Of a DNA stretch of 64,000 nucleotides, positions 12,166 through 30,194 are shown piece after piece. Position numbers and translations under genes: made by a program. The notes beneath the pieces are model-generated. The model was not told the origin of the DNA. It did no database searches and saw only the letters and a program-made list of their open reading frames with translations. The first letter of the stretch is position 1. Each line of letters starts with the position of its first letter. This DNA is from Levilactobacillus fuyuanensis (lineage in GTDB: Bacteria > Bacillota > Bacilli > Lactobacillales > Lactobacillaceae): assembly GCF_003946395.1 (NCBI RefSeq), contig NZ_RHNZ01000014.1, positions 1-64,000 on the forward strand. Reading direction: 5' to 3'.

Positions 12166-12360
12166 TAGCCGGAGGAGGCCAGGGGTGGCACCGGCCGTGA
12201 TAGTGGTGTTAGACCGGGTGATTTTTCCCGGCCTTACAGCGCGGGACGCGTTTGGAAACTCGCATGATCCTAGCGAGGTTTCGAACCGAGCTGGAAGCCC
12301 GCTCTTTGGCTGCAAGCGATCCCCACACAGCGGCAGAACCCCTGGCAGCCGCAGGCGACA
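12166..12360 (+). repeat. Long structured intergenic repeat, copy A (plus orientation)
   Basis: A GC-rich element of about 195 bp. Its left end starts TAGCCGGAGGAGGCCAGGGG and its right end finishes CCCCTGGCAGCCGCAGGCGA, so the ends pair (CCAGGGGT with ACCCCTGG). Inside are at least two hairpins: one with a CCGGG/CCCGG core at 12213-12232 and one with GGAAACTCGC/GCGAGGTTTC near 12253-12282. It aligns over its full length with the reverse complement of 22447-22645 and 29526-29716. It lies in the probable 5' leader of the gene at 12398. Confidence 0.85.
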
Positions 12361-12397
12361 GTGTTCAATCTCAACGATATTTAGGAGGAATAATCAC

Positions 12398-12808
12398 ATG
12401 AAAGACAATATTCAAATGGGTGACGATGAGTTTGCCCAAATGATGCTGGTTCTGAAAGAACCCGTCACGCAGGCTAACCACAAAGAATTCAAATTCCTTG
12501 ATGGGACCGAGACTGGCGAAATGCAGGAGATTGCGCCCGACATCTGGGCAATGCCAGCTTACATGCAGGAAGACGATGATTTTACCATGTTCTTCCTGAC
12601 CACGCAGATCGAATCCGGCGAGACCGTGATGGCGTTTGCGACTGGGGAGACGGCCGATGGCGACTTCCGATTGAGCCAACCAATGGTGACCGGAGCCGGG
12701 CTGAACCTGTTAAATGAGCAACAACCCAACCGGGCCAAGCGGGTTTTGAAGTTCTTGAACGACATCTCCAAGGCTGATCAGGGTGACTGGCGGATGGTCA
12801 ACGACTAA
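12398..12808 (+). CDS. Acidic protein of unknown function
   Basis: 136 residues, strongly acidic (MKDNIQMGDDEFAQMM at the start, many Asp and Glu throughout), no membrane span, no signal peptide, and no family that I recognise. ATG 12398 is chosen because AGGAGGAA lies 8 nt upstream; the frame stays open back to 12185 only because it runs through the structured repeat. It stands alone between the repeat and the uracil permease. It is likely cytoplasmic. Confidence 0.7.
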   Translation: MKDNIQMGDDEFAQMMLVLKEPVTQANHKEFKFLDGTETGEMQEIAPDIWAMPAYMQEDDDFTMFFLTTQIESGETVMAFATGETADGDFRLSQPMVTGAGLNLLNEQQPNRAKRVLKFLNDISKADQGDWRMVND

Positions 12809-12852
12809 ACAATTTGATTGTTTAGTCCCTGACCCCCTGGGTACGATTGTTC

Positions 12853-12882
12853 TTGACAGGGGTCTGTCACAGACCGTATACT
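12853..12882 (+). promoter_or_regulatory. Uracil permease promoter with a palindrome in its spacer
   Basis: The -35 box TTGACA (12853-12858) and the -10 box TATACT (12877-12882) are 18 bp apart. Nearly the whole spacer is the palindrome GGTCTGTCACAGACC (12861-12875; 7-bp perfect arms around one base). That position suits a repressor operator. It could also fold in DNA only, since it lies upstream of the transcript start. Confidence 0.75.
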
Positions 12883-12894
12883 AGTAAAAATTTA

Positions 12895-13000
12895 GTTCCT
12901 TTAACATCGTCCCGTGAGGCGGTGAAGGGTTCGACTTCCGGCGATAGCTGGGTAAACTGGGCGAGCACGCTTCCTTACGGGACGGGCACGCCTTTTTTTA
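12895..13000 (+). promoter_or_regulatory. PyrR-dependent transcription attenuator
   Basis: The leader carries the PyrR-binding RNA motif GTCCCGTGAGGCGG (12909-12922) within a hairpin flanked by CCTTT and GAAGG. An alternative helix pairs CGTCCCGTGAGG (12908-12919) with CCTTACGGGACG (12973-12984), 12 bp with one G-U pair: the antiterminator. The terminator pairs GGCGAGC (12960-12966) with GCACGCC (12986-12992) and runs into seven T. By analogy with pyr attenuators, PyrR-UMP would favour termination when pyrimidines are plentiful. Confidence 0.85.
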
Positions 13001-13029
13001 AACCAATTTTGAACTGGAGGTCATGTGGG

Positions 13030-14301
13030 ATGAAAGAACCATCGCGTTATCGTAATCCAGATGCGTTGATCGATATTTGGGAACGACCGAGTCTGGGACA
13101 GTGGTTTGGGTTATCGCTTCAGCATTTATTCTCCATGTTTGGGTCCACCGTCTTAGTCCCGATTTTGGTTGGGTTGAACCCAGGGATTGCGCTCTTTAGC
13201 TCTGGGGTGGGCACTCTGATGTACATTCTGATTACGCGCGGGAAGATTCCAGCATACATGGGATCGAGTTTCTCATTCATCGTGCCGATGGTGGCCCTGA
13301 TGAAGACGACTGGTTATCCGGGAATCGCGCAGGGGACGATGGCCGTGGGACTGGTCTACCTGATTGTGGCTGTTATCGTTGCGCTAGCTGGCTCGGAATG
13401 GATCAATCAGGTCCTGCCACCCATTGTCGTTGGCCCAATGATCATGGTCATCGGGTTGTCGTTGGCCGGTAGTGCCGCGCAGAAGGCGACCGTGGACAGC
13501 AATGGCACCTATCACTGGCAGTTCTTCCTGGTGGCGATGATCACGTTGCTCCTGACGGTAGCCTTTAACCTGTACTTAAAGGGCTTCCTCGCGCTGATTC
13601 CCATCTTACTGGGAATCGTGGTGGGTTACTTGGTTGGCGCGATTGCGGGATTAGTCGACTTTAAGCCGGTATTGGAAGCGGCCTGGTTCCAGCTCCCAAA
13701 GTTTGAATTCCCGGGTGTGAGCTATCCGCTACATTTCTACTGGGGCGCCGTGTTGAGCCTCGCACCCATCGCATTCGTGACGATGACCGAACATATCGGC
13801 CACATCACGGTATTAAACGAACTGACGCACCGTAACTTTTTCGATGACCCAGGACTTCACCATACTTTAGCTGGGGATGGGCTGGCTTCAATCGTGGCTA
13901 GTCTGGTCGGTGGACCGCCCGTGACCTCCTACGGTGAAAACGTCGGGGTGCTGGCCATCACGCGGGTTCACAGTGTCTACGTCTTGATTGGGGCGGCAGT
14001 CTTCGCGGTCATCTTCAGTTTTGTCGGCAAGCTGAGCGCCTTGATTGAGAGTATTCCCAACCCGGTCATTGGGGGAATCAGCTTCCTATTATTCGGGGTG
14101 ATTGCCTCCAGTGGGATGCGCATTCTGATTGAAAAGCACGTCGACTTCAACAAACGGCGCAACCTGATGATTGCCTCGTCGATCCTGGTTATCGGGATTG
14201 GGAATGCCTACCTGAAGCTCGGTCAGTACGAATTCTCCGGGTTAGCGGTGGCGGCCGTGTTGGGGATTACACTGAACCTGATTCTGCCAAAGGATGTCTA
14301 A
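13030..14301 (+). CDS. pyrP: Uracil permease (NCS2 family)
   Basis: A 423-residue, multi-span nucleobase:cation symporter that takes up uracil. The NCS2 pattern is visible: GLSLQHLFSMFGSTVLVPILVGL near the N-terminus, a conserved AYMGSSFSFI segment and the mid-protein APIAFVTMTEHIGH and VGGPPVTSYGENVG motifs that line the substrate path. ATG 13030 was chosen over the upstream frame because GGAGG lies 9 nt before it and the PyrR leader occupies the extra sequence. PyrR control supports uracil rather than xanthine as substrate. Confidence 0.9.
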   Translation: MKEPSRYRNPDALIDIWERPSLGQWFGLSLQHLFSMFGSTVLVPILVGLNPGIALFSSGVGTLMYILITRGKIPAYMGSSFSFIVPMVALMKTTGYPGIAQGTMAVGLVYLIVAVIVALAGSEWINQVLPPIVVGPMIMVIGLSLAGSAAQKATVDSNGTYHWQFFLVAMITLLLTVAFNLYLKGFLALIPILLGIVVGYLVGAIAGLVDFKPVLEAAWFQLPKFEFPGVSYPLHFYWGAVLSLAPIAFVTMTEHIGHITVLNELTHRNFFDDPGLHHTLAGDGLASIVASLVGGPPVTSYGENVGVLAITRVHSVYVLIGAAVFAVIFSFVGKLSALIESIPNPVIGGISFLLFGVIASSGMRILIEKHVDFNKRRNLMIASSILVIGIGNAYLKLGQYEFSGLAVAAVLGITLNLILPKDV

Positions 14302-14315
14302 AATAAGTCGAGATA

Positions 14316-14363
14316 AAATGAAAGCATCGCTGACAACCTTTGCGTCAGCGATGCTTTATCATT
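14316..14363. terminator. Bidirectional terminator between pyrP and azlD
   Basis: A 14-bp perfect stem AAAGCATCGCTGAC/GTCAGCGATGCTTT (14321-14334 with 14344-14357), extended by AAATG/CATTT, lies between convergent genes. A-rich and T-rich flanks allow use from both sides. Confidence 0.9.
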
Positions 14364-14384
14364 TCTGAGAGAGTTTGTGGTGAA

Positions 14385-14720
14385 CTAGCCACCGATTGAG
14401 AAGTAGCGCAGGACGGCCATTGCCATGATGCCGACAACGACGACCATCAGGAGGCTCTTGGTCAGCACCCCAGCAATCGTGGCGGGGATGGCAGCCAGAC
14501 AGTTAGCCACGTTAAGCGTGGCGAGGTGGCCAGGATTGGCGACGAACAGGCTCTGGCAGCAGAGGGCTGTCATGATCGTAATGGGAACAAACGTGAGAAA
14601 GTCAATCAGCCAAGCCGGCATGCTGACCTGCTTCACGAAGGCAAAGGGGAGTACCCGTGAAGCGACGGTAATCACGCCGCACCCGAGAATCACCCACAGT
14701 TCGGTTAAACTCATCGACAT
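14385..14720 (-). CDS. azlD: Branched-chain amino acid exporter small subunit, AzlD type
   Basis: 111 residues with about four hydrophobic spans, typical of the AzlD/YgaH family that works with AzlC to export branched-chain or other bulky amino acids. Typical features are GCGVITVASRVLPFAF and LTFVPITIMTALCCQSL. It overlaps the end of azlC by 10 nt, so translation is coupled. The two-gene operon is transcribed leftward and ends at the shared terminator with pyrP. Confidence 0.85.
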   Translation of the reverse strand: MSMSLTELWVILGCGVITVASRVLPFAFVKQVSMPAWLIDFLTFVPITIMTALCCQSLFVANPGHLATLNVANCLAAIPATIAGVLTKSLLMVVVVGIMAMAVLRYFSIGG

Positions 14721-15415
14721 TTCTTCATCTCCATTCCAAAGAGACAGCCAGCTACCGTAGCGACGAGTAAGGCAAAGTTCTGACTCATCAGGCCAATCAT
14801 GAAGTAATAAATAATGGCAACAAAGATCATGACCATGAGTTGCAGGGATAAGCCCAAACGCCGGTCGCTAATCAGCTGGAGGTAGACTAGCCCAATGAAC
14901 ATGGCTGTTAGGGCGAAGTCAAAACCAAAACGGGTTGGGTCGGCAATCATGCCTCCCAGTAGGGCGCCGACAATGGTTGCCACGCCCCAGACCAGGTAGG
15001 CCACCAAGTTAGCCGCAGATTGCCAGGCAAAGCTCAACTTGCCGTTGGTCTTGTTCTGCTTGTTCATTGCCAGCGCGAAGGTCTCATCGGTCACAAGAGT
15101 CCCAATCAAAAGATTCTTGAACAGGGATTCGTGCCGGAAATATTGGGCCAGACTGGTACTCATCAGAATCATCCGTGAGTTGACCAGAAAGGTCGAGATG
15201 AAGATGGCGGACAGGGGATCGTGTAGCAGGAGCATGCTCGTGATGATAAATTGTGCGGAACCCGCGTAAACGATAAAGGACATACCGGCCACGACCAGTA
15301 GACTCAGGTGACTAGTGTGCGCGACGATACCAAATGCTAATCCAACTCCAATGTAGCCAAAAACAGTCGGTAACACATCGCGGACGCCGGTCCTGAAGGT
15401 TAGTGAAGGACCCAT
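14711..15415 (-). CDS. azlC: Branched-chain amino acid exporter large subunit, AzlC type
   Basis: 234 residues from the chosen start. AzlC family features: DVLPTVFGYIGVGLAFGIVA, the SFIVYAGSAQFI motif and LVNSRMILMSTSLAQYFRH, with about six to eight spans. The start is placed at ATG 15415, six codons inside the longest frame, because AGAGGA stands about 8 nt before it, whereas ATG 15433 lacks a ribosome site. It forms the exporter with AzlD. Substrate specificity cannot be read from sequence. Confidence 0.87.
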   Translation of the reverse strand: MGPSLTFRTGVRDVLPTVFGYIGVGLAFGIVAHTSHLSLLVVAGMSFIVYAGSAQFIITSMLLLHDPLSAIFISTFLVNSRMILMSTSLAQYFRHESLFKNLLIGTLVTDETFALAMNKQNKTNGKLSFAWQSAANLVAYLVWGVATIVGALLGGMIADPTRFGFDFALTAMFIGLVYLQLISDRRLGLSLQLMVMIFVAIIYYFMIGLMSQNFALLVATVAGCLFGMEMKKCR

Positions 15416-15806
15416 AGACAGACTTCCTCTCATTGAAAATTAATCAAGTTAAGTACCAGTTTATCGCTATCGTCGGTGAAGGTAAACCGGCAATCTGAAC
15501 TATTTATCCCAATTTGTGAAGAGGAGGCAAACAGAGATAATTGCGGGTAGCAAAGGTGGTACACTAAAGCAGTGAAATAAGAGATGCGTTAAAAGTTATT
15601 AGACCCTAAAAATTAACTCAAATTAGTCCCAATCAATCTGAACCAGAGGTTGATGTGCCGCGGTTTATGGGGCTTACCTTTGGCCTAGGCCACTCTGCAA
15701 CAAAAATGTAAAATTCCTGTGAAAAATACTTCGTGTAAAAGGGTTGCTTTTTACTGATGGCGGTTGTATGATACTCTCATTGACGAACGAAGAAAGCGGG
15801 GTAAAG
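15416..15806. promoter_or_regulatory. Divergent intergenic region between azlC and a small MerR-type gene
   Basis: No further gene is supported. A good promoter for the rightward gene lies at its end: TTGCTT and TATGAT with a 17-bp spacer in the segment 15744-15773. A perfect 12-bp palindrome TGGCCTAGGCCA is at 15681-15692, and a related pair ATTAGACCC / ATTAGTCCC is near 15599 and 15626. These may be regulator sites; nothing shows which protein would bind. Confidence 0.45.
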
Positions 15807-16046
15807 ATGATGAAGATGAACTTAACTGAACTGGCAAAGGCAGCTAATGTTGATGCTGGTCGGATCGATGAATACGTTAAGCATGGCTTGCTAGGGGCAG
15901 ACCACTCTGCGACGGAATTCGACGATTCGGATCTCTACTGGATCGACATGATTCAGTGTTTTCAGGATAACGGGACGTCTTTAGATGACTTATCCGGATT
16001 GTTACCACGATGCCGGAAAGGCCAATCTCGACTCATGCAAGTTTAG
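15807..16046 (+). CDS. Small MerR-type HTH protein
   Basis: 79 residues. The N-terminal NLTELAKAANVDAGRIDEYVKHGLL is a MerR-like winged-helix start, and DLYWIDMIQCFQDNGTSLDDLSGLLPR matches the second part of the DNA-binding domain. It then stops after a few residues, with no dimerising coiled coil or effector domain. It may be a natural mini-regulator or a truncated MerR. The start at 15807 (Met-Met-Lys-Met) is preceded by only a weak GCGGGG site. A terminator follows. Confidence 0.7.
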   Translation: MMKMNLTELAKAANVDAGRIDEYVKHGLLGADHSATEFDDSDLYWIDMIQCFQDNGTSLDDLSGLLPRCRKGQSRLMQV

Positions 16047-16074
16047 TAACGATAGTGTAAATATAGTTCCAAGT

Positions 16075-16113
16075 AGCGCCGTGCGGTTTAGCCGCAGGCG
16101 TTATTTTTTTGCG
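16075..16113 (+). terminator. Intrinsic terminator after the small MerR gene
   Basis: A CGCC...TGCGG/CCGCA...GGCG stem with a four-base loop is followed by seven T. Confidence 0.85.
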
Positions 16114-16179
16114 GTTAATTAACAACGAAAAAAGGCGGTCATTCCCGCAATAGGGGATGACCGTCTTTGATGTTACCGA

Positions 16180-16905
16180 TTATTCAGCTTTAACTTGTTT
16201 GATCAGCTGTTGCATGGCTTGGGCTTGGTAAGCGGCCGCAGCTTGCTTGGTAACTTTCTTCTGTTCTGCCGCTGATAGCGATGGGTTCTTGGTCATCGCT
16301 GCCATGACTTGTTGCTTGACGTAGGCCGTAGCCGCCGTCTTCTGTTTGGCTTGGAAGGCCTTTGAACTGGCAAGCTTTTGTAACTTCTTGGCTTGCGTAG
16401 CACTCAGCACCGTCCAGTTCTTGTTGATGTAAATGGTGTTGGTTTCCTTCACATACTTGTGACCGTTACCGGTGAGACCAAACCAGAAGCTGTCCATATC
16501 ACTCTTGTATTCGCGGTAAACCTTCTTGGTGACGATGCGATTGGTACCTGTCGTCCGTTTAACCACGTTCTTCGTCGTGACTTTAGCCTTGGTATGGCTA
16601 GTCTTCTTGGCGGTTGCACTGGTCTTGTAAACGTAGACCTGATGCTTATTAGCTGTCCCGATGGATTGGTAGATCATCATTGGGAGCTGCTTGGAAGGTG
16701 AAGCCGAGTAAATCTTTTGAGTCGACGTCGTGGTGACGTTGTGCAGGCCATAGTGGTCATGATCGTTCTTGACCAGGAAGAAGATGCTGGTCAGCATCCC
16801 GATAATTGCGATCGTAGTTAACGTATTGGCGAGAACCCGATTAGACATGTAGACGTAAAACACGAAAGCGAGAACCGCACAGAGAGCTAATGTAATGAGA
16901 ATCAC
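16180..16905 (-). CDS. DUF4811 membrane-anchored protein, partner of the DHA2 exporter
   Basis: 241 residues. Two N-terminal membrane spans (about 2-19 and 29-44) are followed by a basic, Lys/Thr/Ala-rich domain presumably outside the membrane; the C-terminal third is Ala/Gln/Lys-rich and likely helical. In lactobacilli DUF4811 genes are commonly placed directly after a DHA2-type exporter, as here. The start overlaps the exporter stop by 4 nt (ATGA type), so the two are translated together. Its role, perhaps exporter assembly, is unknown. Confidence 0.82.
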   Translation of the reverse strand: MILITLALCAVLAFVFYVYMSNRVLANTLTTIAIIGMLTSIFFLVKNDHDHYGLHNVTTTSTQKIYSASPSKQLPMMIYQSIGTANKHQVYVYKTSATAKKTSHTKAKVTTKNVVKRTTGTNRIVTKKVYREYKSDMDSFWFGLTGNGHKYVKETNTIYINKNWTVLSATQAKKLQKLASSKAFQAKQKTAATAYVKQQVMAAMTKNPSLSAAEQKKVTKQAAAAYQAQAMQQLIKQVKAE

Positions 16906-18392
16906 TTTGCGGCACCTCCTTTAATAGAATCTTCATCCGCCATATGAACAGAGTGGGAGCCCTTTAATTGGAAGGCCACGAACAGGGCAATGACGCTGAA
17001 CCCGATGGCAATCCAGAAGGCAGCATGGTAACCGTTCAAAGTGGCGTTAATGGCACGTGAGGCGTAACTCAGAGGGTCCGTCGTTAAGACGTGCTTAGCT
17101 GGCATACTGTTCTTGGTCACGTTGGTCAAGACACTGACCATGATGGCCGTTCCAACAGAACTGGCCACTTGCCGCTGGGTGTTGTTGACGGCAGTCCCAT
17201 GAGACAGCATGTTCATTGGTAAAGCGTTCATTCCGGCGGTGGTTGCAGGCATCATGACCATGGCAATCCCGAACATCCGAATGGCGTAGAGCATCACGAT
17301 GTAAAGTGTTGAGGTGTCCTTGGTGATCCAGACGAATGGTAAGGTCCCAACCGTCAGGAGGAACATCCCCATCGTGGCTAAACGCTTAGCCCCAAAGCGG
17401 TCAAATGCCCGCCCAGTGATGGGACTCATGATCCCCATCATGAGGGCCCCAGCTAACAGCGTTAATCCAGAATGGAAGGCCGACATCCCTTTAACCATTT
17501 GAAGGTAAAGGGGAATGACCATTTCAACACCGACCATGGCCATGTTGACCACGGAACTTAAGATAGCAGCAACTGTAAATTGCTTAGACTTGTAAACCCG
17601 GAAGTTCAAGAATGGGTCGTCCATGACGAGTTGACGCCAGATGAACAGACCAACGAAGATGAACCCGATGATCAAGGTAGAGAGCACTTTGACGCTACCC
17701 CAACCATCGTCACCGACGGAGGAGAAGCCATACAGCATACTTCCGAATCCAATAGTAGAGAGAATTGCGGACAGGACGTCTAATGGTTCCTTGTGCGTTT
17801 CGAGAACGCTACGCATGAGCCAGAAGCTGGCTAAGATGACAACGGCAACGATAGGAATAATCATGCCGAAGAGGTCACGCCAAGTCCAGTTGTCGATGAC
17901 CCACCCTGAAAGGGTCGGGCCAATGGCAGGTGCCAGACCGATAACGATCCCAGCAAGACCCATGGCAGTCCCACGCTTGTTAGCGGGGAAGATTGTCAGC
18001 ATCATGGTCTGCAGTAATGGCATGGAGACCCCCACACCAACGGCTTGGATCAACCGACCGGCCAATAACATTGGGAAGTTAACGGCTGCCCAACACGTGA
18101 TGGTTCCGACTAAGAAAGTCGTCATGGCACTGATGTATAAAACCTTGGAGCTGATGGTGTTCAGCAACCAGGCACTGATTGGGATCATGATCCCGTTGAC
18201 TAATAGAAATCCCGTGGTCAACCATTGCACGGTTGACGTTGAGACATCAAAGGCCTTCATTAAGGTTGGAAAGGCCGTACTTAAAATGGTTTGGTTTAAA
18301 ACGGTACAAAACGTCCCAATTAATAGGAGCACAACCAGGAGGTTCCGGTTGTAGGGTTTGCCGTTTGTATCAAGCGATGCTGCATTTCCCAA
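16902..18392 (-). CDS. DHA2-family multidrug exporter (14-TM major facilitator)
   Basis: 496 residues with about 14 spans. Typical of the EmrB/QacA-like DHA2 group are LLIGTFCTVLNQTILSTAFP near the N-terminus, the conserved VQWLTTGFLLVNGIMIPISA segment, LAGRLIQAVGVGVSMPL and the motif-C type GLAPAIGPTLSGWVID. It pumps drugs or other toxic compounds out using the proton gradient; substrates are unknown. It is divergent from the MerR regulator at 18613 and shares a face-to-face promoter-operator with it, so it is probably controlled by that protein. Confidence 0.88.
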   Translation of the reverse strand: MGNAASLDTNGKPYNRNLLVVLLLIGTFCTVLNQTILSTAFPTLMKAFDVSTSTVQWLTTGFLLVNGIMIPISAWLLNTISSKVLYISAMTTFLVGTITCWAAVNFPMLLAGRLIQAVGVGVSMPLLQTMMLTIFPANKRGTAMGLAGIVIGLAPAIGPTLSGWVIDNWTWRDLFGMIIPIVAVVILASFWLMRSVLETHKEPLDVLSAILSTIGFGSMLYGFSSVGDDGWGSVKVLSTLIIGFIFVGLFIWRQLVMDDPFLNFRVYKSKQFTVAAILSSVVNMAMVGVEMVIPLYLQMVKGMSAFHSGLTLLAGALMMGIMSPITGRAFDRFGAKRLATMGMFLLTVGTLPFVWITKDTSTLYIVMLYAIRMFGIAMVMMPATTAGMNALPMNMLSHGTAVNNTQRQVASSVGTAIMVSVLTNVTKNSMPAKHVLTTDPLSYASRAINATLNGYHAAFWIAIGFSVIALFVAFQLKGSHSVHMADEDSIKGGAAK

Positions 18393-19438: not shown

Positions 19439-19608
19439 GGGCGGTCAACTATCGGCCGGAACGCTGGCGGCGGACGTCGGAAGCCAAGGAGCGGTCTTCC
19501 AACTTGTCCTTGAGACGCTGTGAGTCGCGTCTCAAGGACACCAATTCTCTAAGCGGTTAAAACCACCGCCAAGAGAATTCCGCCGGCTGAGCCGATAGTT
19601 GACCGCCC
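19439..19608. repeat. Nested palindromic element, about 170 bp
   Basis: The outer arms are a perfect 18-bp inverted repeat: GGGCGGTCAACTATCGGC (19439-19456) with its complement at 19591-19608. Inside lie two separate hairpins: TGTCCTTGAGACGC with GCGTCTCAAGGACA (19505-19518 and 19527-19540, 14 bp perfect) and AATTCTCT with AGAGAATT (19543-19550 and 19572-19579). No coding frame is supported. It may be a miniature mobile element or a structured RNA. Confidence 0.75.
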
Positions 19609-20092
19609 TCCGGCTAATACTTGTGTGTTGCCAAGTATGCGCTGGCAGTAATAAGCGGCATTGGCCTGAATTGTGCTTAGTAGGTAGATATGGGTAACTA
19701 CGGATCGAGAAGGGTACCCGGTCTAACTGCACCGTCACGGGGTTCCGTTCCTAATTGCCTCCGGTTCTGGCCCAAACGATGGTCGAAATGTGTCATCACT
19801 GGTTTAGACTTATGCCATGAAAAAATCAGTAACGATGAGTTGAGCTGACAGATTCTTCAATATCTTAGGCAATAATCGCTATTATAGAGACTGATCTCGT
19901 CTGTGAGAAATCTGTGAGAAAATGAAAGAAAAATGAAAAGAAAATTTTTATATGAAAGCCATCAGATGGGCGTTTTCATTTGTGCCATTTTGCACAGAAG
20001 AAAAAAGTTGGTCAAGATGGTTGTATTTCGTCGTCAGCGTGTTAATATAACAAAATCGCTTTAAACCAAAAACATGAAGGATGGTGTTATAC

Positions 20093-21730: not shown

Positions 21731-21784
21731 CTGTGCGGCTGATGTTGTTGTATTAGGAACATAATCTAGATGAGGTGAACAGTG

Positions 21785-22432
21785 ATGACTCCGATGAAGG
21801 AGGATTATTTAAAAATTATTTTCGAGCTGGGTGGTAAGCAAAAGAAAGTTTCCAACAAACAGATTGCTATCAGCTTGAATATTGCTGCCGGGTCCGTGAC
21901 CGAAATGGTCAATAAGATGACGGCAGAGGGTTTGGCCGAGCACACGCCCTACGCGGGAATTTCCCTGACTAACCGGGGTATCCGGCTGGCCGAGGATTTG
22001 GTTCGTAAGCACCGAATCTGGGAAGTCTTTCTCGTGGAAAAATTGGACTATGATCTGCCCGACGTTCACGCGGAGGCCGAAGTGCTGGAACACGTGACAA
22101 GTCCTAAATTAGTCAATTCACTGGATGACATGCTGGGTCACCCCACGCATTGTCCCCACGGTGGGGTCATTCCGGATCGGTTTGGCCACTACCATGAAGA
22201 CAGTCATGTGGTCTTGAATGATGCTAAGGACGGCTCGGTCGTGACCGTGGACCGGTTTATCGACAACCGGGACTTATTGACGTATCTGGGTGATTTGAAG
22301 TTGGATATCGGTGATCAACTGCGGATCATCAAGCACGATCCATTTGAAGGCCCCGTGACCGTTCAGAACTTAACGGATGATGCGGAATTGATTGTGAGCT
22401 ATAAGGCGTCCCACTACATCTTCATTAAGTAA
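21785..22432 (+). CDS. DtxR/MntR-family metal-dependent repressor
   Basis: 215 residues. An N-terminal winged helix (MKEDYLKIIFELGG...VSNKQIAISLNIAAGSVTEMVNKM) precedes the metal-binding dimer domain with EAEVLEH and HPTHCPHGG, and a C-terminal FeoA/SH3-like domain (VTVDRFI...DIGDQLRIIKHDPF). It probably binds Mn2+ or Fe2+ and represses metal uptake. ATG 21785 was chosen because GAGGTGA lies 6 nt upstream, whereas GTG 21782 is too close to it. It may be co-transcribed with the CDF exporter. Confidence 0.88.
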   Translation: MTPMKEDYLKIIFELGGKQKKVSNKQIAISLNIAAGSVTEMVNKMTAEGLAEHTPYAGISLTNRGIRLAEDLVRKHRIWEVFLVEKLDYDLPDVHAEAEVLEHVTSPKLVNSLDDMLGHPTHCPHGGVIPDRFGHYHEDSHVVLNDAKDGSVVTVDRFIDNRDLLTYLGDLKLDIGDQLRIIKHDPFEGPVTVQNLTDDAELIVSYKASHYIFIK

Positions 22433-22446
22433 ATTTGGCTGAACAT

Positions 22447-22645
22447 TGTCGCCTGCGGCTGCCAGGGGTTCTGCCGCTGTGGGGAACGACTGCAGCCAAA
22501 AGGCGGGCTTCCGTCTCGGCTTGAAACCTCGCTAAAAGCGTGCGAGTTTCCAAACACGTCCCACGCTGTAAGTCCGGGCAAAAGCAACCGCCCGGACTTA
22601 CACCGTCGACACGGCTGGCGCCACCCCTGACAGCCTCCGTCTAGA
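22447..22645 (-). repeat. Long structured intergenic repeat, copy B (minus orientation)
   Basis: About 199 bp, beginning 14 bp after the mntR-type stop. Read on the minus strand it aligns with copy A throughout. Its first inner hairpin is a perfect GTAAGTCCGGG/CCCGGACTTAC, where copy A has a different, less perfect stem at the same place. Terminal arms pair (TCAGGGGT with ACCCCTGG). It has no coding frame of its own. Confidence 0.85.
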
Positions 22646-22918
22646 TAAATGTTTAGCCGGCAACATTTAATGATTTTGAAGTGATAATGCTACGCTTTGA
22701 ACTGCAAATATTAAATATAATGTAATTGACGGGAACAATCGGTAGCTACTGGTTGCTCCTTTTATTTATGACGCGTTATCGGCCAGAATGGTTGGGTTTC
22801 CCCTATACTTATTACTAATGTAAAAATCTGGAAATCAGTCTCACTTTTTCCAGAATACATAGGAATTTCGTTTTAAGATAAAAACTTTTTAGGGATAAAA
22901 GCAACATTTGCAATCAAA
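22646..22918. other. AT-rich spacer between two repeat copies
   Basis: No gene is visible. A TATAAT-containing AT-rich stretch (about 22706-22722) is followed by a GGAACAA...TTGCTCC hairpin with a TTTTATTT tail (about 22730-22766), so a very short transcript is conceivable but unproven. The rest shows nothing recognisable. Confidence 0.35.
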
Positions 22919-22925
22919 GCCAGCC

Positions 22926-22993
22926 TAGTCGATGGAGGCTAGGGATGGCGCCGGCTGTGACCGCGGCAGTATCCCTGACAGCCGCAGGCGACA
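22926..22993 (+). repeat. Short form of the structured repeat, copy E (plus orientation)
   Basis: 68 bp that keep only the two ends of the repeat (left CTAGGGATGGCGCCGGCTGTGA, here split in reading; right ATCCCTGACAGCCGCAGG) and lack the roughly 130-bp middle. The ends still pair (AGGGAT with ATCCCT), though the bases differ from copies A-D. It looks like an internal deletion or a minimal version of the element, upstream of the ThrE genes. Confidence 0.75.
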
Positions 22994-25196: not shown

Positions 25197-25221
25197 CAAT
25201 AATTCTTTAAATGACTTTAAG

Positions 25222-26010
25222 TTAATTTAGCTCGTTCAGCCATTCGTTCGCCAGATCCATCCAGTGGGCAACGTGGGGCAGATCGGTTCCCGGTTTCCAC
25301 GCCGTCACGTGGTTCGCAAGTGCCAAGCCATGGGGACCGTGATGGAAGATGTGAAGGTCAGTGTCTACATGATGAGCCAGGGAAGCCTGGGCGTAGCTCA
25401 TTGCGTTTTGAACCGGTACCAGTGGATCGGCGGCCGTACCCCAGATGAAGGTGGGAACGTTTTGGTCATTGACCAGTTCATCGGCGGCAATACTGTCGAC
25501 ATCATCCGTCCAACTTGCCAACACTTGTGCGTCAGTCGGAAAGCCTAGCTTGGGCGAAATAACCGGGTAGCCCAGAATCACGGCGTTTGGCTTGACCTGT
25601 TCCGGCTGGGTGCCAGCGAGGGTGTTGATTTTGGCATCGTGCCAGAGGTCATTGAAGAGGGCAACGATGTGGCCACCCACGGAGAAGCCGGCGATAGTGA
25701 TACGATCGGAATCAATGCGCCATTCCTCAGCGTGTTGCCGGATGGTGGCGACACTTTGGGCCAACTCAACGATTGGTGCAGGCAACAGGGGATGCTTCTC
25801 TCCTGTAAAGCTGTAGCGAAGGAAGAAGGCCTGAAAGCCCCGGGCGGACCAAGCCAAGGCTAAATCCTCAGCCTGTTGCTCGGGGATGTGCGTGTAAGAC
25901 CCACCGGGCACGATGATTATGGCGGGAGCGGTCGCATTGCCGTCCTCACGCAGGTAACCTTGTAAGTAAGCCGCGGAGTCGGTGGCCAGTGACTGGGTAA
26001 TAATCTTCAT
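25222..26010 (-). CDS. Alpha/beta hydrolase, BD-FAE/acetyl-esterase like
   Basis: 262 residues, cytoplasmic. The oxyanion-hole region VPGGSYTHIPEQQAEDLA and the nucleophile elbow GFSVG with Ser110 are clear. The acid is probably in AADPLVP and the base in HGPHGLAL. Similar lactobacillal proteins are described as xylan or short-chain ester hydrolases; the natural substrate is unknown. CAAGGAGGA lies 8 nt before the ATG. A minus-strand promoter is visible upstream (TTGATA at 26106-26111, spacer 18, TATAAT). Confidence 0.85.
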   Translation of the reverse strand: MKIITQSLATDSAAYLQGYLREDGNATAPAIIIVPGGSYTHIPEQQAEDLALAWSARGFQAFFLRYSFTGEKHPLLPAPIVELAQSVATIRQHAEEWRIDSDRITIAGFSVGGHIVALFNDLWHDAKINTLAGTQPEQVKPNAVILGYPVISPKLGFPTDAQVLASWTDDVDSIAADELVNDQNVPTFIWGTAADPLVPVQNAMSYAQASLAHHVDTDLHIFHHGPHGLALANHVTAWKPGTDLPHVAHWMDLANEWLNELN

Positions 26011-26135
26011 TGCAAATCCTCCTTGAATTAGTGAATCATGTTAAGATCATGTTAGTATAGATACTAAAAGTTATGCAGACATTATATCTAATTGTAACGC
26101 ACTTTATCAAAAAATAACGAGAGGGAGTTGTGCGA

Positions 26136-26684
26136 TTGACAGCAATTTTAAAGACGCAACGGCTGGACTTACGGCCCCTGACGGACAGCGATTATCCGGC
26201 CTATAAGCGCTTAGTGACCAATCCAGTGATTGCACAGCCCGTGGGTTTCTCACCACAACCGGATGACCAGCAGGTTCGGCGGTGGTACCGCGCGGATCGA
26301 AACAGTGTGCAGTCTTACGCAGTCGTTCTTCACCAGACCAATCAATTTATTGGCGCGGTCATCTTTTACGATTGGTTCGCAGATAACGGCCTTCCCGATG
26401 AAACGAGTCTAGAATTGGGGTACTTCTTGGACCCTGAATATTGGGGACGAGGCCTCATGCCTGAGGCTTTAACAGCATGTTTTAGGGATTTGAGCCAGGC
26501 AGAATCGTCGGTTAAATTAGTCTGGGCCAACTGCCTGGTCAGCAACGAACGCTCCTGCCAATTATTAGAAAAATTATGTTTCCAAACAATTGGTGACCAA
26601 TTGATGGGCGTGACCGGTGGTGGACAAACGTTGCAACGTCAAGCTTTGTTTCGACTAAGCCTGGATGATTCGCAAAATAATTGA
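26136..26684 (+). CDS. GNAT-family N-acetyltransferase (RimJ/RimL-like)
   Basis: 182 residues. It begins TAILKTQRLDLRPLTDSDYPAYKRL, a typical start for the RimJ/RimL-like subgroup, and has ELGYFLDPEYWGRGLMPEAL as acetyl-CoA motif and SNERSCQLLEKLCF as the later motif. Targets may be protein N-termini or small molecules. The start is placed at TTG 26136, 8 nt after GAGGGAG; GTG 26130 would be too close to that site. A lysine riboswitch unit follows. Confidence 0.82.
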   Translation: MTAILKTQRLDLRPLTDSDYPAYKRLVTNPVIAQPVGFSPQPDDQQVRRWYRADRNSVQSYAVVLHQTNQFIGAVIFYDWFADNGLPDETSLELGYFLDPEYWGRGLMPEALTACFRDLSQAESSVKLVWANCLVSNERSCQLLEKLCFQTIGDQLMGVTGGGQTLQRQALFRLSLDDSQNN

Positions 26685-26703
26685 CACTAATCTAAATTTA
26701 ATC

Positions 26704-26990
26704 TTGCAATTTTCAGAATTCATGAGTATACTTCAATGTATCGAATAGAAGAGGCGCAATCAACATGAGTCGCTTCCCTCAGGTGGGTATCACCGATGAG
26801 GGGAAGCAAAAGGGGCGATTGCCGAAATTCCCACGTGACTACCTAGCGTGAGGATTGGGTCCTGGTTTAACAGATCAGGGACTGTCGCAGTCAAATATTA
26901 GGCTGCGGGGCGCTTTCAACGATATTGACTTGGAATTATGAACTTTCCAATCTCTTTCGCGGGCTTTTATTGCGAAGGAGATTTTTTCGT
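26704..26990 (+). promoter_or_regulatory. Lysine riboswitch with its promoter and terminator
   Basis: Promoter TTGCAA (26704-26709), spacer 17, TATACT (26727-26732). The leader carries lysine-riboswitch (L box) hallmarks: AGAAGAGGCGCAA near 26746-26758, GGGGAAGCAAAAGGGGCGAT then TGCCGAAAT near 26797-26827, and GGCTGCGGGGCG near 26902-26913. A terminator pairs AATCTCTTTCGC (26949-26960) with GCGAAGGAGATT (26972-26983), 12 bp with one G-T pair, followed by T. Lysine binding would favour the terminator and shut the permease off. The downstream gene identity fits. Confidence 0.85.
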
Positions 26991-27041
26991 TCACTGGGTC
27001 GTTTCGAGGAAGTCCTTCTAAAATAAGAAGGAGGAAACATT

Positions 27042-28556
27042 ATGGAACAAAGCATGACAAACGCAACAACCAGCGAGGCTTCTGATCAAGTTAAGCGGGG
27101 ACTCAAGACGCGACACGTATCAATGATCGCGTTAGGTGGCTGTATCGGGACAGGGTTATTCGTCGCAAGTGGTTCAGCTATCTCAACCGCCGGGCCTGGT
27201 GGTGCGCTAGTTGCCTATGTTGCCATGGGTCTGATGGTTTACTTCCTGATGACTAGTTTGGGCGAAATGGCCACGAACATGCCAATTTCTGGTTCGTTCG
27301 CCGCTTATTCTGCCAAGTATGTTGATCCAGCTTTAGGATTTGCCATGGGCTGGAACTACTGGTTCAACTGGGCCATTACGGTTGCCGTTGACATTTCTAC
27401 TGCCGCTTTGGTTATGAAGTTCTGGTTACCCGGCGTTCCCGGCTGGATCTGGAGTGCCGTTGCCTTGCTTCTGGTCTTCACAATCAACGCATTCTCCGTG
27501 CAAGCCTTTGGTGAAACGGAATTCTGGATGTCTCTGATCAAGGTTGTCACGATCTTTGTCTTCCTGGCCGTTGGGTTAATGACCATCGTTGGTATCATGG
27601 GTGGTCACGCAACTGGCTTGGAAAACTTCACTTACAAGAAGGCACCATTCGTTGGCGGTTTCCCAGCCATTCTGAGTGTGTTCGTTGTTGCCGGGTTCTC
27701 CTTCCAAGGTACTGAATTAGTTGGTATCACGGCCGGTGAATCTGAAGACCCTTCACACAGTGTGCCTAAGGCGATTAACTCAGTGTTCTGGCGGATTATT
27801 TTATTCTATATTTTAGCTATCTTTGTCATTGCCGCTGTCTTACCATACACGAGTCATGATCTGTTAGGTTCTTCTGCAAGTGATATTGCAATCAGTCCAT
27901 TTACGTTGGTCTTCCGGCGTGCCGGTTTGGCCGCCGCTGCTAGTGTGATGAACGCGGTTATCTTGACGGCCGTTATCTCAGCCGCCAACTCCGGGATGTA
28001 CGCTTCAACGCGGATGCTGTTCTCCCTTTCTAAGGAAGGTTATGCACCTAAGTTGTTCGAAAAGACTGGTAAGAATGGGATTCCTTATCCTGCATTGTTT
28101 GCCACGACCATCATCGCTGCGCTGACCTTTATCAGTAGTATTGCCGGTCCTCAAATCTACATGTGGTTAGTTGCTGCTAGTGGGTTGACTGGATTCATTG
28201 CTTGGTTCGGGATTGCTTTATCTCACTTACGGTTCCGTCGGGCTTTCACCTTACAAGGTCACAAGCTGTCTGAACTCAAGTACCATGCAAAGTGGTTCCC
28301 ATTAGGACCAATCCTGGCCTTGGTATTATGTATCGCTGTTATCGTAGGTCAAGATCCACAATCCTTCTTCACGGGTAACTGGGAACAAGTACTGGTTACT
28401 TACATGAGTGTGCCACTGGTCTTAGTGCTCTACGTTGGCTACAAGATCAAGAAGCACACGAAGTTGATTCCATTGAAGGATGTCGACGTTTCCCCAGTCC
28501 ATCGTGATGGGACGTTAAAGGAAGACGCTGCAGCACGTGAAGCATCAAACGATTAA
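27042..28556 (+). CDS. lysP: Lysine-specific permease
   Basis: 504 residues with 12 spans, amino acid permease (APC) superfamily. The N-terminal RGLKTRHVSMIALGGCIGTGLFVASG and SLGEMATNMPISGSFAAYSAKYVDPALGFAMGWNYWFNW signatures fit the LysP/AAT group. It imports L-lysine with protons. The upstream lysine riboswitch is strong independent support for lysine. ATG 27042 follows AAGGAGGAA. It is a single-gene transcript ended at 28602-28645. Confidence 0.93.
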   Translation: MEQSMTNATTSEASDQVKRGLKTRHVSMIALGGCIGTGLFVASGSAISTAGPGGALVAYVAMGLMVYFLMTSLGEMATNMPISGSFAAYSAKYVDPALGFAMGWNYWFNWAITVAVDISTAALVMKFWLPGVPGWIWSAVALLLVFTINAFSVQAFGETEFWMSLIKVVTIFVFLAVGLMTIVGIMGGHATGLENFTYKKAPFVGGFPAILSVFVVAGFSFQGTELVGITAGESEDPSHSVPKAINSVFWRIILFYILAIFVIAAVLPYTSHDLLGSSASDIAISPFTLVFRRAGLAAAASVMNAVILTAVISAANSGMYASTRMLFSLSKEGYAPKLFEKTGKNGIPYPALFATTIIAALTFISSIAGPQIYMWLVAASGLTGFIAWFGIALSHLRFRRAFTLQGHKLSELKYHAKWFPLGPILALVLCIAVIVGQDPQSFFTGNWEQVLVTYMSVPLVLVLYVGYKIKKHTKLIPLKDVDVSPVHRDGTLKEDAAAREASND

Positions 28557-28601
28557 TCTGAAATTGTGTGGGCAATTTTCACTTAAATAAAAAAATTTTA
28601 A

Positions 28602-28645
28602 CGACGATTGGTTCGGGTGAATCCCGACCAGTCGCCGTTTTGTGT
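28602..28645 (+). terminator. Intrinsic terminator after lysP
   Basis: CGACGATTGGTTCGGG pairs with CCCGACCAGTCGCCG with minor mismatches around a GTGAAT-type loop, then TTTTGT. Confidence 0.8.
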
Positions 28646-28796
28646 CTGACAAGGGGACAGAACCCGTCAACCGCTGAAGAGGAATTTTCCACGATATATT
28701 GTCTTTTGCCGGTAGGGTTGGTACAATATGTAGTGTTGAAATTTAGACCGGATGAAAACGATTTCCGGTATGCGCGTAAATCAAAGGAGAGATAGC

Positions 28797-29429
28797 ATGC
28801 TTGTACTATCAGGAACAATTGGGGCCGGCAAGACGAGTTTAACGAACTTATTAGCCGAACACTTACAGAAACCAGCTTTTTATGAATCGGTGGACGATAA
28901 TAAGATTCTGCCACTGTTTTACCAGAACCCGCAAAAGTATGCTTTCTTATTGCAAATCTACTTTTTAAACAAGCGGTTGGACAGCATTAAGGCTGCCAAC
29001 GCTGACAATGAAAGTGTCTTGGATCGTTCAATCTTTGAAGATTCCTTGCTCTTTCACTTAAACGCTGACCTCGGTCGGGCAACCAGCACAGAAGTTGACA
29101 TCTACGACTCCTTACTGGCCAACATGATGCAAGAATTACCAGACGCCGTTCACAAGAAGAACCCTGATCTGTTGATTCACATCAATATTTCCTTTGAAAC
29201 GATGTTGGAACGGATCAAGAAACGTGGCCGTTCTTACGAACAGATCGATCACGATCCTAGCTTGTTTGAATACTACAAACAACTCGACCAACGTTACGTG
29301 AACTGGTACAACAGCTACGACAAGTCACCCAAGATGCAAATCGATGGTGACAAGCTGGACTTCGTGGAAGACCCAGCCGCACGTCAAGAAGTTCTCCACT
29401 TGATCGATGAAAAGATTGCGTCACTTTAA
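28797..29429 (+). CDS. Deoxynucleoside kinase (deoxyadenosine/deoxyguanosine type)
   Basis: 210 residues. Phosphorylates deoxynucleosides in the salvage pathway. The P-loop GTIGAGKTSL is near residues 6-15, the FYESVDDNKIL segment holds the substrate-binding glutamate, LDRSIFEDSLLF is the conserved DRS motif, and ERIKKRGRSYEQID is the lid. In lactobacilli these enzymes handle dA, dG or dC; which is uncertain. ATG 28797 was chosen because AAAGGAGAG lies just upstream. A terminator follows. Confidence 0.9.
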   Translation: MLVLSGTIGAGKTSLTNLLAEHLQKPAFYESVDDNKILPLFYQNPQKYAFLLQIYFLNKRLDSIKAANADNESVLDRSIFEDSLLFHLNADLGRATSTEVDIYDSLLANMMQELPDAVHKKNPDLLIHINISFETMLERIKKRGRSYEQIDHDPSLFEYYKQLDQRYVNWYNSYDKSPKMQIDGDKLDFVEDPAARQEVLHLIDEKIASL

Positions 29430-29460
29430 GTTTAATTTGACTAAACGCTATTAGGCGTTT

Positions 29461-29497
29461 GAGAGTACTGACCACGGTTAGTGCTCTTTTCTTTACA
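29461..29497 (+). terminator. Intrinsic terminator
   Basis: GAGTACTGAC pairs imperfectly with GTTAGTGCTC, followed by TTTTCTTT. Confidence 0.75.
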
Positions 29498-29525
29498 GCG
29501 AAATACATCTGACAAATGTTGCGGG

Positions 29526-29716
29526 TGTCGCCTGCGGCAGCCAGGGTTCCACCTGCTATGGGGACCGCCTGCAGCCAGAGTGCGAGCTTTCGTCTCGGTT
29601 TGAAACCTCGCGAAATTCGTGCGAGTTTCCCAACGCGTCCCGCGCTGTACGGCCGGGAAGGTCACCGGTCTAACACCGCTGTCACAGCTGGCTACACCCT
29701 GGCTGCCTTCGGCTAA
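29526..29716 (-). repeat. Long structured intergenic repeat, copy C (minus orientation)
   Basis: About 191 bp just after the terminator of the deoxynucleoside kinase gene. On the minus strand it aligns with copies A and B end to end, including the GGAAACTCGC/GCGAGGTTTC hairpin. Its end arms read CCAGGGT and ACCCTGG, a paired change from copy A. Open frames across it reflect its GC content only. Confidence 0.85.
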
Positions 29717-29954
29717 GGCAACGTTTGACAGTATGCATTGAACTGGTTGGGAACCCCAAGTGTAGACACACTAGAGTTCTCTTACGATTGAGAAGAATAG
29801 TGAATTTTCGCATAGATCCGTTTTTTGTCTGCTGTCAGTTCTTATCGAAGAGCTGCCATAGCTAATGGATTTCGCGCGTCATATAACAATTTGGCGGAAA
29901 TTTTGTATTTCTTGCGGTATTGTCATCAGCAAGTATCCGGGTGAGTAACAAGCT
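29717..29954. other. Spacer between repeat copies C and D
   Basis: About 240 bp with no gene and no clear terminator. It does not resemble the spacer between copies B and E at 22646-22918. Confidence 0.4.
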
Positions 29955-30194
29955 TAGCCGGAGGAGGTCAGAATGTAGCCAGCCGTGACGATGACCTTAG
30001 CTGACGATTTTTGTCAGGTTAGGTCATGGGACGAGCTTGGAGACGCTGGTCCTTGCGGCTTCAAGTCGAGGTCCAAGACCGCTTCTCAGGCTTGGACCGG
30101 TCCCCACAGCAGGCGGAATTCTGACAGCCGCAGGCGGCGCTTTTACGCAATCTGCAGGTAAGTAGCAGGCGGAATCTCTGGCAGCCGCAGACGA
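29955..30194 (+). repeat. Long structured intergenic repeat, copy D (plus orientation), plus a partial right end
   Basis: Copy D spans about 29955-30139. Its outline matches copies A-C but its stems carry different bases: end arms TCAGAAT with ATTCTGA, first hairpin ATGACC..CTGAC/GTCAG..GGTCAT, and a GGTCCAAG/CTTGGACC hairpin near the right end. A detached right-end fragment (GCAGGCGGAATCTCTGGCAG, 30165-30184) follows. The serS promoter lies immediately downstream, at 30231. Confidence 0.8.

Follow-up and report, generated by a model that had tools for sequence, protein, structure and literature searches.

Intergenic spaces of a 64,000-nucleotide stretch of the Levilactobacillus fuyuanensis genome (contig NZ_RHNZ01000014.1, positions 1 to 64,000; here called the window) carry a repeat in both orientations, and the locus raises the question of what this repeat is and why its helices are kept. 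A preliminary description had proposed that paired base changes among the copies imply selection for structure, either in RNA or in extruded DNA, and that the repeat could be a structured RNA, a miniature mobile element, or a REP-like site. The copies belong to an apparently uncatalogued, large family of ~195-base folded repeats that lie beside Levilactobacillus genes. The repeat appears to be a parasitic or domesticated element that spreads slowly and acts as a folded single strand, probably RNA.

Copies in the window and in other genomes

Direct reading and alignment confirmed the six copies named in the preliminary description (A to E and a right-end fragment), but the list was incomplete, since the structure model adds a seventh, copy F (Table 1). 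The same reading and alignment place A, D, E, and the fragment on the plus strand and B and C on the minus strand, in line with the two orientations noted earlier. All gene positions used here come from a home-made open reading frame (ORF) caller and not from an annotation; it puts copies A to D outside genes, in agreement with their intergenic description. The end-arm pairs quoted earlier and the altered inner hairpin of copy D are likewise present in the sequence. A mechanical ORF (12185-12808) crosses copy A, its likely start being the ATG at 12398 after AGGAGG, and a mechanical 94-amino-acid ORF overlaps copy F. The genes that neighbour the window copies are of unrelated kinds. Taken alone, copy A has a fold energy that stands out only modestly (z = -2.26), with 3 of 200 shuffles doing as well.

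Table 1. Repeat copies, fragments, and outer arms in the 64-kb window
Feature	Position	Strand	Score, sequence, and setting
5' outer arm, copy A	12150-12165	+	AGATTAAAGACTAGCG; read by eye
Copy A, full-length, 195 bp	12166-12360	+	Structure model, 153 bits; read directly and aligned; 37 nt upstream of ATG 12398, ~250 nt past GNAT gene 11327-11914
3' outer arm, copy A	12361-12371	+	GTGTTCAATCT; read by eye
Copy F, long, diverged, newly added	19447-19600	-	Structure model, 57 bits, E = 1.1e-11
5'-end fragment adjoining copy F	19700-19764	-	HMM E-value 3.7e-4
3' outer arm, copy B	22437-22447	-	Plus strand = GGCTGAACATT; read by eye
Copy B, full-length	22447-22645	-	Structure model, 159 bits; 3' end 14 nt from stop codon of iron-dependent-repressor-type gene 21782-22432 (+)
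5' outer arm, copy B	22648-22658	-	Plus strand = AATGTTTAGCC; read by eye
Copy E, short, internally deleted	22926-22993	+	31 bits; upstream of ThrE-type gene (23107)
Copy C, full-length	29526-29716	-	Structure model, 139 bits; 97 nt from stop codon of deoxynucleoside-kinase-type gene 28752-29429 (+)
Copy D, full-length, compensated inner hairpin	29955-30139	+	Structure model, 145 bits
3'-end (right-end) fragment	30163-30194	+	

The window's own genome contains at least 40 BLAST matches (with 40 of 157 candidates scored) and at least 82 structure-model matches. A search of this genome and of other lactobacilli with a structure model, as the preliminary description had proposed, found matches in 34 of 35 Levilactobacillus genomes, at least 82 in each of 19 of these, and in 6 of 245 other genomes of the order, which belong to four other genera of the same family. 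All such counts per genome are lower bounds, and copy number between species ranges from 0 to at least 82. In 400 kb examined from two species, 111 core matches of ~157 nt make up ~4% of the DNA. The full element is branched and mostly 183 to 199 bp long (about 165 to 195 bases in the family description), and 48 elements of genome G000 average 61.2% G+C, compared with 49.1% for three G000 contigs.

Copies are far more alike within species than between species, a likeness that could also stem from gene conversion. At least 39 further copies in genome G002 are 83 to 95% identical to one G002 copy, and the listed G002 copies are 74 to 76% identical to a window copy. In 12 G002 copies the alignment runs to a sharp border, with 5' flanks that are mostly unrelated.

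No Rfam 15 family matched the element (gathering cut-off or E <= 0.1), which leaves the earlier suggestion of no known named family unrefuted. A T-box (twice) and cspA (once) were matched nearby, beside copies and not on them. A search of open PubMed Central papers showed, among those listed, none on such a repeat in Levilactobacillus, which does not establish absence from print; since Rfam 15 has no match, the family would merit an entry if confirmed. BLAST with two queries found no copy on plasmids or phages, in a collection that includes at least 99 Levilactobacillus plasmid records, and this absence is odd for an active transposon.

Covariation and the strand that folds

In its one conserved branched shape, the fold combines a basal stem, in which G.A mismatches are fixed, with an inner multi-helix domain. 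Among 48 divergent copies, 37 of 43 pairs covary and 96.4% of cells are paired, compared with 31 to 43% when the alignment is slid; the covariation was equaled in 0 of 500 shuffles and exceeded all slid controls. In 118 copies outside the training set, 40 of 43 pairs covary. Compensatory helix changes beyond controls, by which a structured RNA family is recognized, are therefore present, and the preliminary claim that structure is kept by selection is supported by both sets of covarying pairs; its own stated counter-outcome, covariation no better than chance, did not materialize. Some of the apparent compensation, mainly in the locus-specific outer arms, may reflect template switching and not selection.

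The G.A mismatch is conserved in 192 of 198 copies and the A.G mismatch in 191 of 198 (~97%), and unpaired bases such as GUG are invariant or nearly so in the 48 divergent copies. Change between orthologs was counted in 24 of 32 orthologous pairs, the 8 with less than 85% identity having been dropped. Paired sites differ at 0.047 per base, compared with 0.088 at unpaired and flank sites; double changes kept pairing in 19 cases and broke it in 6, and single changes broke it slightly more often than they kept it (56 versus 48). At 6 of 9 orthologous loci, element identity (0.88 to 0.98) was above that of the near flanks (0.60 to 0.91).

On one strand, G-U cells outnumber A-C cells in two alignments (66 versus 17 and 148 versus 58), with 2 of 43 pairs left out of each for being less than 70% Watson-Crick; those left out of alignment A2 hold 8 A-C and 39 G-U cells. 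Among core pairs that are at least 85% Watson-Crick, G-U exceeds A-C in 33, the reverse holds in 11, and 6 are equal. The excess sits in G-C pairs (211 versus 78), with A-T pairs at only 62 versus 53, and in the outer arms G-U is not above A-C (451 versus 584). The sense fold is lower in energy in 130 of 198 copies. These data support the strand reading TAGCCGGAGG...GCAGGCGAC as the folded molecule, either as RNA or as single-stranded DNA. Of the preliminary alternatives, RNA or extruded DNA, selection for structure stands, and the one-strand excess of G-U over A-C speaks against extruded double-stranded DNA. The strand bias together with the ~97% conserved G.A mismatches argues for a folded single strand and not a cruciform; correction of a palindrome would tend to erase the G.A and A.G mismatches.

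Gene ends, flanks, and outer arms

Placement of the repeat is polar: in two counts of lone copies, 42 of 45 and 46 of 46 have their nearest gene on the 3' side, and the 3' end adjoins a stop codon more often than a start codon. Where the 3'-side gene is antisense, its stop codon is within 38 nt in 28 of 42 copies, and in 42 of 64 copies the G-U-favoured strand runs antisense to the mRNA of the gene on the 3' side. None of 64 and none of 107 copies lies inside a called gene (the 107 being the 111 core matches minus the four weakest; 104 are flanked by genes on either side).

Within the window's clade, the sequence on the 5' side repeats the 3' flank in inverted orientation, and does so even if the 3' flank is coding. 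Swapped partners paired as highly as true arms in 0 of 5,000 cases, and the corresponding figure for pairing of the 5' arm with coding sequence was 0 of 2,000. In 21 copies no more than 22 nt from a stop codon, the 3' arm falls inside coding sequence, and its pairing with the 5' arm persists; the 5' arm is therefore taken as the derived side, and on the same 21 copies integration into pre-existing terminators or palindromes was rejected. The 20 copies examined from G002 and G014 gave no significant arm signal, and 96 copies from G000 and G007 gave no trend with divergence. The arms are therefore not a general part of the process, and both their formation at insertion in all lineages and their growth with age were rejected. 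A motif, GGTAAGGCGGCCAG, was seen downstream of copies in G002 and G014.

A search for target-site duplications, which the preliminary description had named as a feature to look for, found none in the youngest copies. The longest exact direct flank repeat was matched in 354, 4,504, and 4,152 of 5,000 permutations (60, 60, and 20 copies, each 60 drawn at random from the larger sets of 96 and 99). Gapped direct flank similarity was weakly raised in two older sets (16 and 161 of 5,000 permutations as high) and not raised in the young copies (4,787 of 5,000).

A sister genome lacks copies, or has reduced ones, at 10 loci, and contains solo and deleted forms of the element. Outside full copies, the solo-core pattern matched 24 times, with 10 of the matches lying between called genes; for 5 of those 10 the sister genome has a full copy at the locus, on which basis solo cores were rejected as the ancestral target. 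Direct repeats of AGCCGnAGG occur at both element ends. No clean insertion footprint was found among the comparisons listed (the sister genome and G026 versus G011), and the loci listed for G026 and G011 include composite rearrangements.

Proposed origin of the repeat and its relation to known systems

The reading we favour, to which we give about an even chance, is a non-autonomous, chromosomally dispersed Lactobacillaceae repeat that is copied as a folded strand in each lineage and whose fold is kept mainly by that copying. New copies would arise when the folded strand is copied, by machinery probably supplied in trans, into gap DNA beside genes. The fold would persist mainly because only competent strands get copied, with some maintenance after insertion. 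In the window's clade the hairpin may also act on its own flanks during DNA synthesis, the element-bearing strand snapping back to copy the adjoining gene end and so leaving locus-specific inverted arms, and the AGCCGnAGG repeats could allow deletion back to a short hairpin. No autonomous partner was found in the fragment list, which covers a subset of the genomes (G026 and G011 not among them). Y1 transposases occur in 23 of 35 genus genomes; none was found in G001 or G011, each with at least 82 model matches. RVT_1 (reverse transcriptase) occurs in 10 of 35 and was not found in G000, G007, G001, G018, and G026, where it could have been lost or be too divergent. Dependence on either enzyme was rejected, as the distribution does not fit. 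A promoter of the element's own on its 5' side was also rejected: no clear promoter-hexamer peak lies upstream of 91 copies, and the 5' flanks of the 12 G002 copies are mostly unrelated.

An unlikely alternative is a host cis element, a gene-end or leader RNA structure (stabilizer, processing site, or attenuator) kept for regulating the neighbouring gene. Its tight placement after stop codons, the lack of copies inside called genes and of BLAST matches on plasmids, the element identity above near flanks at 6 of 9 orthologous loci, and the roughly halved rate of change at paired sites all agree with such a role. However, the G-U-favoured strand is antisense to the 3'-side mRNA in 42 of 64 copies, 10 loci in the sister genome lack or have reduced copies, the window neighbours are unrelated, and copy number varies from 0 to at least 82 between species.

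It is rather improbable that the repeat is a bacterial analogue of a SINE, in which the 3' end of a structured RNA is copied into DNA, beginning at a free DNA end next to a stop codon. As the copy is self-folding, synthesis could continue into the adjoining gene end, so that an inverted copy of that end remains on the far side. If true, an RNA-driven repeat would account for ~4% of the sampled DNA in two species, and some of its host genomes would be without detectable reverse transcriptase.

A conventional DNA MITE, whose terminal inverted repeats are acted on by the transposase of an insertion sequence, is similarly doubtful. The imperfect terminal inverted repeats, high copy number in both orientations, likeness within species, and weak gapped flank similarity in older sets would suit it, but exact direct flank repeats are not above swapped partners in three sets, the fragment list has no same-strand 5' and 3' ends spaced like an insertion sequence or around an ORF, and the inner fold is elaborate and strand asymmetric. 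The G+C content (61%, versus 49% for genome contigs) also differs from that of MITEs, at least as they are described as AT-rich in one account (PMC10969869).

A REP/IS200-type element of single-stranded DNA, in which a Y1 transposase recognizes one folded strand, is very unlikely. G.T is better tolerated than A.C in DNA too, and the strand-specific fold, polar placement, and Y1 transposases in 23 of 35 genomes are consistent with it. Against it stand the high-copy genomes in which Y1 was not found, G001 and G011, and the ~195-bp branched element itself, given the 20 to 40 bp of REPs described in PMC3733652. Of the three preliminary suggestions, the REP-like site needs refining: the family is not a typical REP, being much longer and occurring at high copy number in some genomes where Y1 was not found.

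The chance is slim that these are intrinsic, bidirectional transcription terminators spreading as hairpins. They lie just past stop codons, many copies in the window's genome have an A-run before and a T-run after the stem, and T4 follows within 60 nt in 32 of 91 copies, compared with 16 of 91 in a control stretch. Yet A4 upstream shows no clear excess (38 of 91 versus 31 of 91), most copies lack a T-run, and neither at copy A nor inside copy B did a terminator-like site score. Another terminator-like site lies beyond 16 of 41 and before 13 of 41 antisense-placed copies, in a rough scan that scores positive for 167 of 293 copy-free gaps as well. A host terminator role was set aside on these run counts and scans.

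Template switching at DNA replication, without selection, can create and correct hairpins in the cited account (PMC8794818) and may still fit the outer arms, which copy coding ends without wobble preference, but as the sole cause it is highly improbable and for the core is disfavoured by the two G.A mismatches kept at ~97%, with one strand favoured there and unpaired bases such as GUG (near-)invariant in 48 divergent copies.

Bacterial small interspersed repeats are usually short palindromes or AT-rich MITEs. The Levilactobacillus repeat stands out by a branched covarying fold kept across the genus and in some relatives and by a near-constant orientation relative to the nearest gene. If confirmed, it would offer a tractable food-grade system for studying how such repeats multiply, the possible building of RNA hairpins by template switching at replication, and the effect on gene ends of having scores of similar folds.

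PMC3049150 describes BOX, RUP, and SPRITE of Streptococcus pneumoniae as small interspersed repeats present in large numbers, for which strong RNA structure is predicted; they are regarded as parasitic and slow to move, are clustered or nested, and sometimes lie at gene ends. By description, the present repeat is like them in these respects. The streptococcal repeats hardly occur outside S. pneumoniae and S. mitis, apart from BOX relatives in S. suis, and BOX is built of modules (boxA-boxB-boxC). The present repeat differs in having one covarying branched fold across a genus and four other genera, a strong polarity of the 3' end, and, in the window's clade, arms that copy gene ends. Bacterial MITEs are described as short and AT-rich, with imperfect terminal inverted repeats and a structured transcript, and as lying between genes (PMC10969869). 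The present repeat is also short, intergenic, and bounded by imperfect terminal inverted repeats, but is GC-rich, with no target-site duplication in young copies and no partner insertion sequence seen in the fragment list. With the REP/BIME systems and their Y1 (RAYT) transposases it shares intergenic hairpins and high copy number; it is longer and branched, and its distribution does not require Y1. Finally, template-switch hairpins extend a stem by inverted copying of a flank, as in the outer arms, although PMC8794818 treats RNA genes and not interspersed repeats.

Copies in the window and in other genomes

Direct reading and alignment located all six features named in the preliminary description, and a covariance model, which had been proposed there and was built from 48 divergent copies (alignment A2, R1), recovered the four long copies, with 139 to 159 bits, and the short one, together with one additional copy. 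Placement between genes held for copies A to D according to a home-made gene caller, but a mechanical ORF (12185 to 12808) crosses copy A; in all likelihood this ORF begins at the ATG at 12398, i.e., downstream of the copy.

Repeat copies and other features in the window
Feature	Position	Strand	Remarks
Copy A, full length	12166-12360	+	
Additional diverged long copy	19447-19600	-	Covariance model, 57 bits
Copy B, full length	22447-22645	-	
Copy E, short	22926-22993	+	Covariance model, 31 bits
Copy C, full length	29526-29716	-	
Copy D, full length	29955-30139	+	
Right-end fragment	30163-30194	+	
Lysine riboswitch	26741-26923		116 bits; upstream of ORF at 27042
Tandem repeats of ~132 bp	44979-45498		66-80% alike; common 61-bp block up to 98% alike
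Two similar segments	909-1961 and 7452-8504		75-77% identity; separation, 6543 bp; probably paralogous genes

The initial impression that the repeat belongs to no named family agrees with Rfam, which across the window matched only the lysine riboswitch and tRNAs, gave a best E value of 2.2 at copy A under relaxed limits, and did not match the copies themselves at 20 loci of other species. The source genome, G000, contains at least 40 BLAST matches to copy A (all 40 that were scored of 157 candidates). Among 58 genomes (G000 and 57 relatives), BLAST matched 29 of the 35 Levilactobacillus genomes, G000 included, and none of the 23 from other genera. An exact 21-base pattern was found at 69 loci, of which 67 belong to Levilactobacillus or to lactobacilli named no more precisely than that; the remaining two, which are uncultured, are probably due to chance. 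The structure model is more sensitive: at an E value of ≤0.001 it matched 34 of the 35 genomes of the genus, with at least 82 matches each in 19 of these and only weak, distant matches in some, and G021 was the sole genome without a match. An order-wide draw of 246 genomes, searched with stricter filters than the genus, yielded seven matching genomes, namely, G000 and six others of the same family from four other genera.

Core matches (E ≤ 0.001) number 111 in the 400 kb covered of G026 and G011, two close species, and fill ~4% of that sequence. Related subfamilies are very dense at loci L225 to L244 of these species, often neighbouring and oppositely oriented. No copy was found by BLAST in plasmid and phage collections (queries, one G000 and one G002 copy; at least 99 Levilactobacillus plasmid records included), by the 21-base pattern in viral contigs, or by the structure model in small G002 and G014 contigs totalling 45 kb. 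Another dispersed repeat (L144:14792-15156, contig C54 of G000) has several 76 to 89% matches in the sister genome G007.

Fold and folding strand

The compensatory changes reported in the preliminary description exceed chance. Of the 43 consensus pairs, 37 change on both sides among the 48 divergent copies, 96.4% of cells are paired versus 31 to 43% with partners slid, and 0 of 500 shuffles reached any of five pairing measures. A second set of 118 copies, to which G026 and G011 contributed 107 and six genomes from outside the genus the other 11, has covariation at 40 of 43 pairs; its cells are 94.8% paired versus 25 to 48% slid. The alignment of this set was fitted to the model and hence leans its way, and many of its loci are common to G026 and G011. 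An extra four-pair helix, GGGA/UCCC, closes the inner domain (96.8% paired, with little variation). Mismatches are conserved in the basal stem (G.A in 192 and A.G in 191 of 198 copies), beneath which 128 of 198 copies have tandem A.G/G.A and the others Watson-Crick pairs. Mismatch conservation speaks against a stem that template switching has simply made perfect. Within 24 orthologous pairs, differences amount to 0.047 at paired bases versus 0.088 at unpaired or flanking ones; double changes keep the pair in 19 cases and break it in 6, and single changes keep it in 48 and break it in 56, a modest upkeep of the fold. That the family and its fold are genuine is nearly certain.

Selection for a double-stranded cruciform should leave G-T and A-C departures equally common. 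G-U exceeds A-C at 33 core pairs, A-C exceeds G-U at 11, and 6 are equal, with 66 versus 17 cells in A2 and 148 versus 58 in the alignment of the 118 further copies, A3 (helices were predicted on the sense strand, a mild bias, and the antisense consensus is nearly identical). The excess is found in G-C pairs (211 versus 78 cells; A-T pairs, 62 versus 53). At unpaired sites, C>T (0.094) and G>A (0.078) are near equal and T>C (0.086) is above A>G (0.021), a bias that, if anything, works against G-U. For 130 of 198 copies the sense strand has a lower folding energy than the complementary one, and the outer arms have no G-U preference (451 G-U versus 584 A-C). Given the preference in the core, the active form is probably a folded single strand, the one that reads TAGCCGGAGG...GCAGGCGAC, and we have good confidence in strand specificity. 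RNA is the likeliest form of this strand; it may also be single-stranded DNA, since G.T is tolerated there too.

Flanks, gain, and loss

The flanks of G000 copies are locus specific, and in 47 copies their own partners pair better than the flanks of other copies (0 of 5,000 permutations for five windows within 60 nt; 88 of 5,000 at 40 to 80 nt). In 21 copies with a stop codon ≤22 nt away, pairing links the 5' flank to the end of the adjacent coding sequence (mean, -18.4 versus -14.8 kcal/mol; 0 of 2,000), and the signal is absent deeper inside that gene (875 of 2,000); the 5' arm therefore resembles this gene end copied in inverted orientation. The arm signal recurred in 60 copies from other Levilactobacillus loci (0 of 5,000), and one arm pair has, by eye, compensated differences between G000 and G007. 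The arms are not a general rule, because 20 G002 and G014 copies gave no significant signal (894 of 5,000; 238 to 1,781 of 3,000) and arm strength did not depend on divergence in 96 G000 and G007 copies. Template switching onto the nascent strand, as described in PMC8794818, would explain arms copied from gene ends; on such a snap-back origin our opinion is evenly balanced.

Downstream of many copies at L205 to L224 (G002 and G014) is a motif like GGTAAGGCGGCCAG (11 of 20 by regular expression, others by eye), which is similar to the 5' strand of the element itself and might form an alternative pairing with the element's 3' strand. At L207 (G002, contig C1, near 1208800), the 3' end and this motif form a short tandem duplication.

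In G002, 39 further copies are 83 to 95% identical to one copy of the same genome, whereas identity of G002 copies to the window copy is 74 to 76%; the similarity of G014 copies to each other is more widely spread. Alignment of 12 G002 copies stops at an abrupt border, and the flanks beyond it are mostly unrelated, except for a 5' flank common to two and a few border bases alike. This likeness and these borders point to amplification or conversion within species, and we consider such amplification rather likely. Target-site duplications, a check suggested at the outset, were not found as exact repeats between the flanks in three copy sets; gapped direct similarity was weakly raised in two older sets and not in young copies.

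Ten loci differ by 110 to 250 bases between G000 and G007, which may be losses or gains; the poorer genome retains a short AGCCGnAGGCG-like core between pairing flanks at four, a partial copy at three, and no recognisable trace at three. Deletion would be eased by the direct repeats at both ends of the element. At nine orthologous loci, six element pairs are 0.88 to 0.98 identical, each exceeding both near flanks, and three are 0.61 to 0.78 identical, as if replaced. At one locus of two near species (L087:800-1230 and L064:940-1240; flanks, ~96 to 97% identical), the elements are clearly different family members, as if one had supplanted another. Reverse transcriptase domains occur in 10 of the 35 genomes of the genus and were not found in G000; Y1 transposases occur in 23 of 35 and were not found in the high-copy genomes G001 and G011. 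None of the listed end fragments are spaced around an ORF.

Polarity beside genes and relation to known repeats

Among 64 G000 and G007 copies outside genes (home-made gene caller), the 3'-side gene is antisense in 42, so that the 3' end of the element faces a stop codon, which lies within 38 nt in 28 of the 42. Of the 64 copies, 56 have their nearest gene on the 3' side; for lone copies the figure is 42 of 45, and for lone copies in G026 and G011 it is 46 of 46. The 88 lone copies so placed point to a stop codon in 60 cases and to a start codon in 28. A 5' end ≤60 nt from a gene was found in 0 of 64 (G000 and G007) and 0 of 104 (G026 and G011) copies.

The repeat family is structured, strand specific, polar, and interspersed; it is real and widespread and apparently lacks a catalogue entry. 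Because it fails the MITE and REP features tested, it is not filed in either class. BOX, RUP, and SPRITE, small interspersed repeats found in streptococci (PMC3049150), are the nearest known kind.
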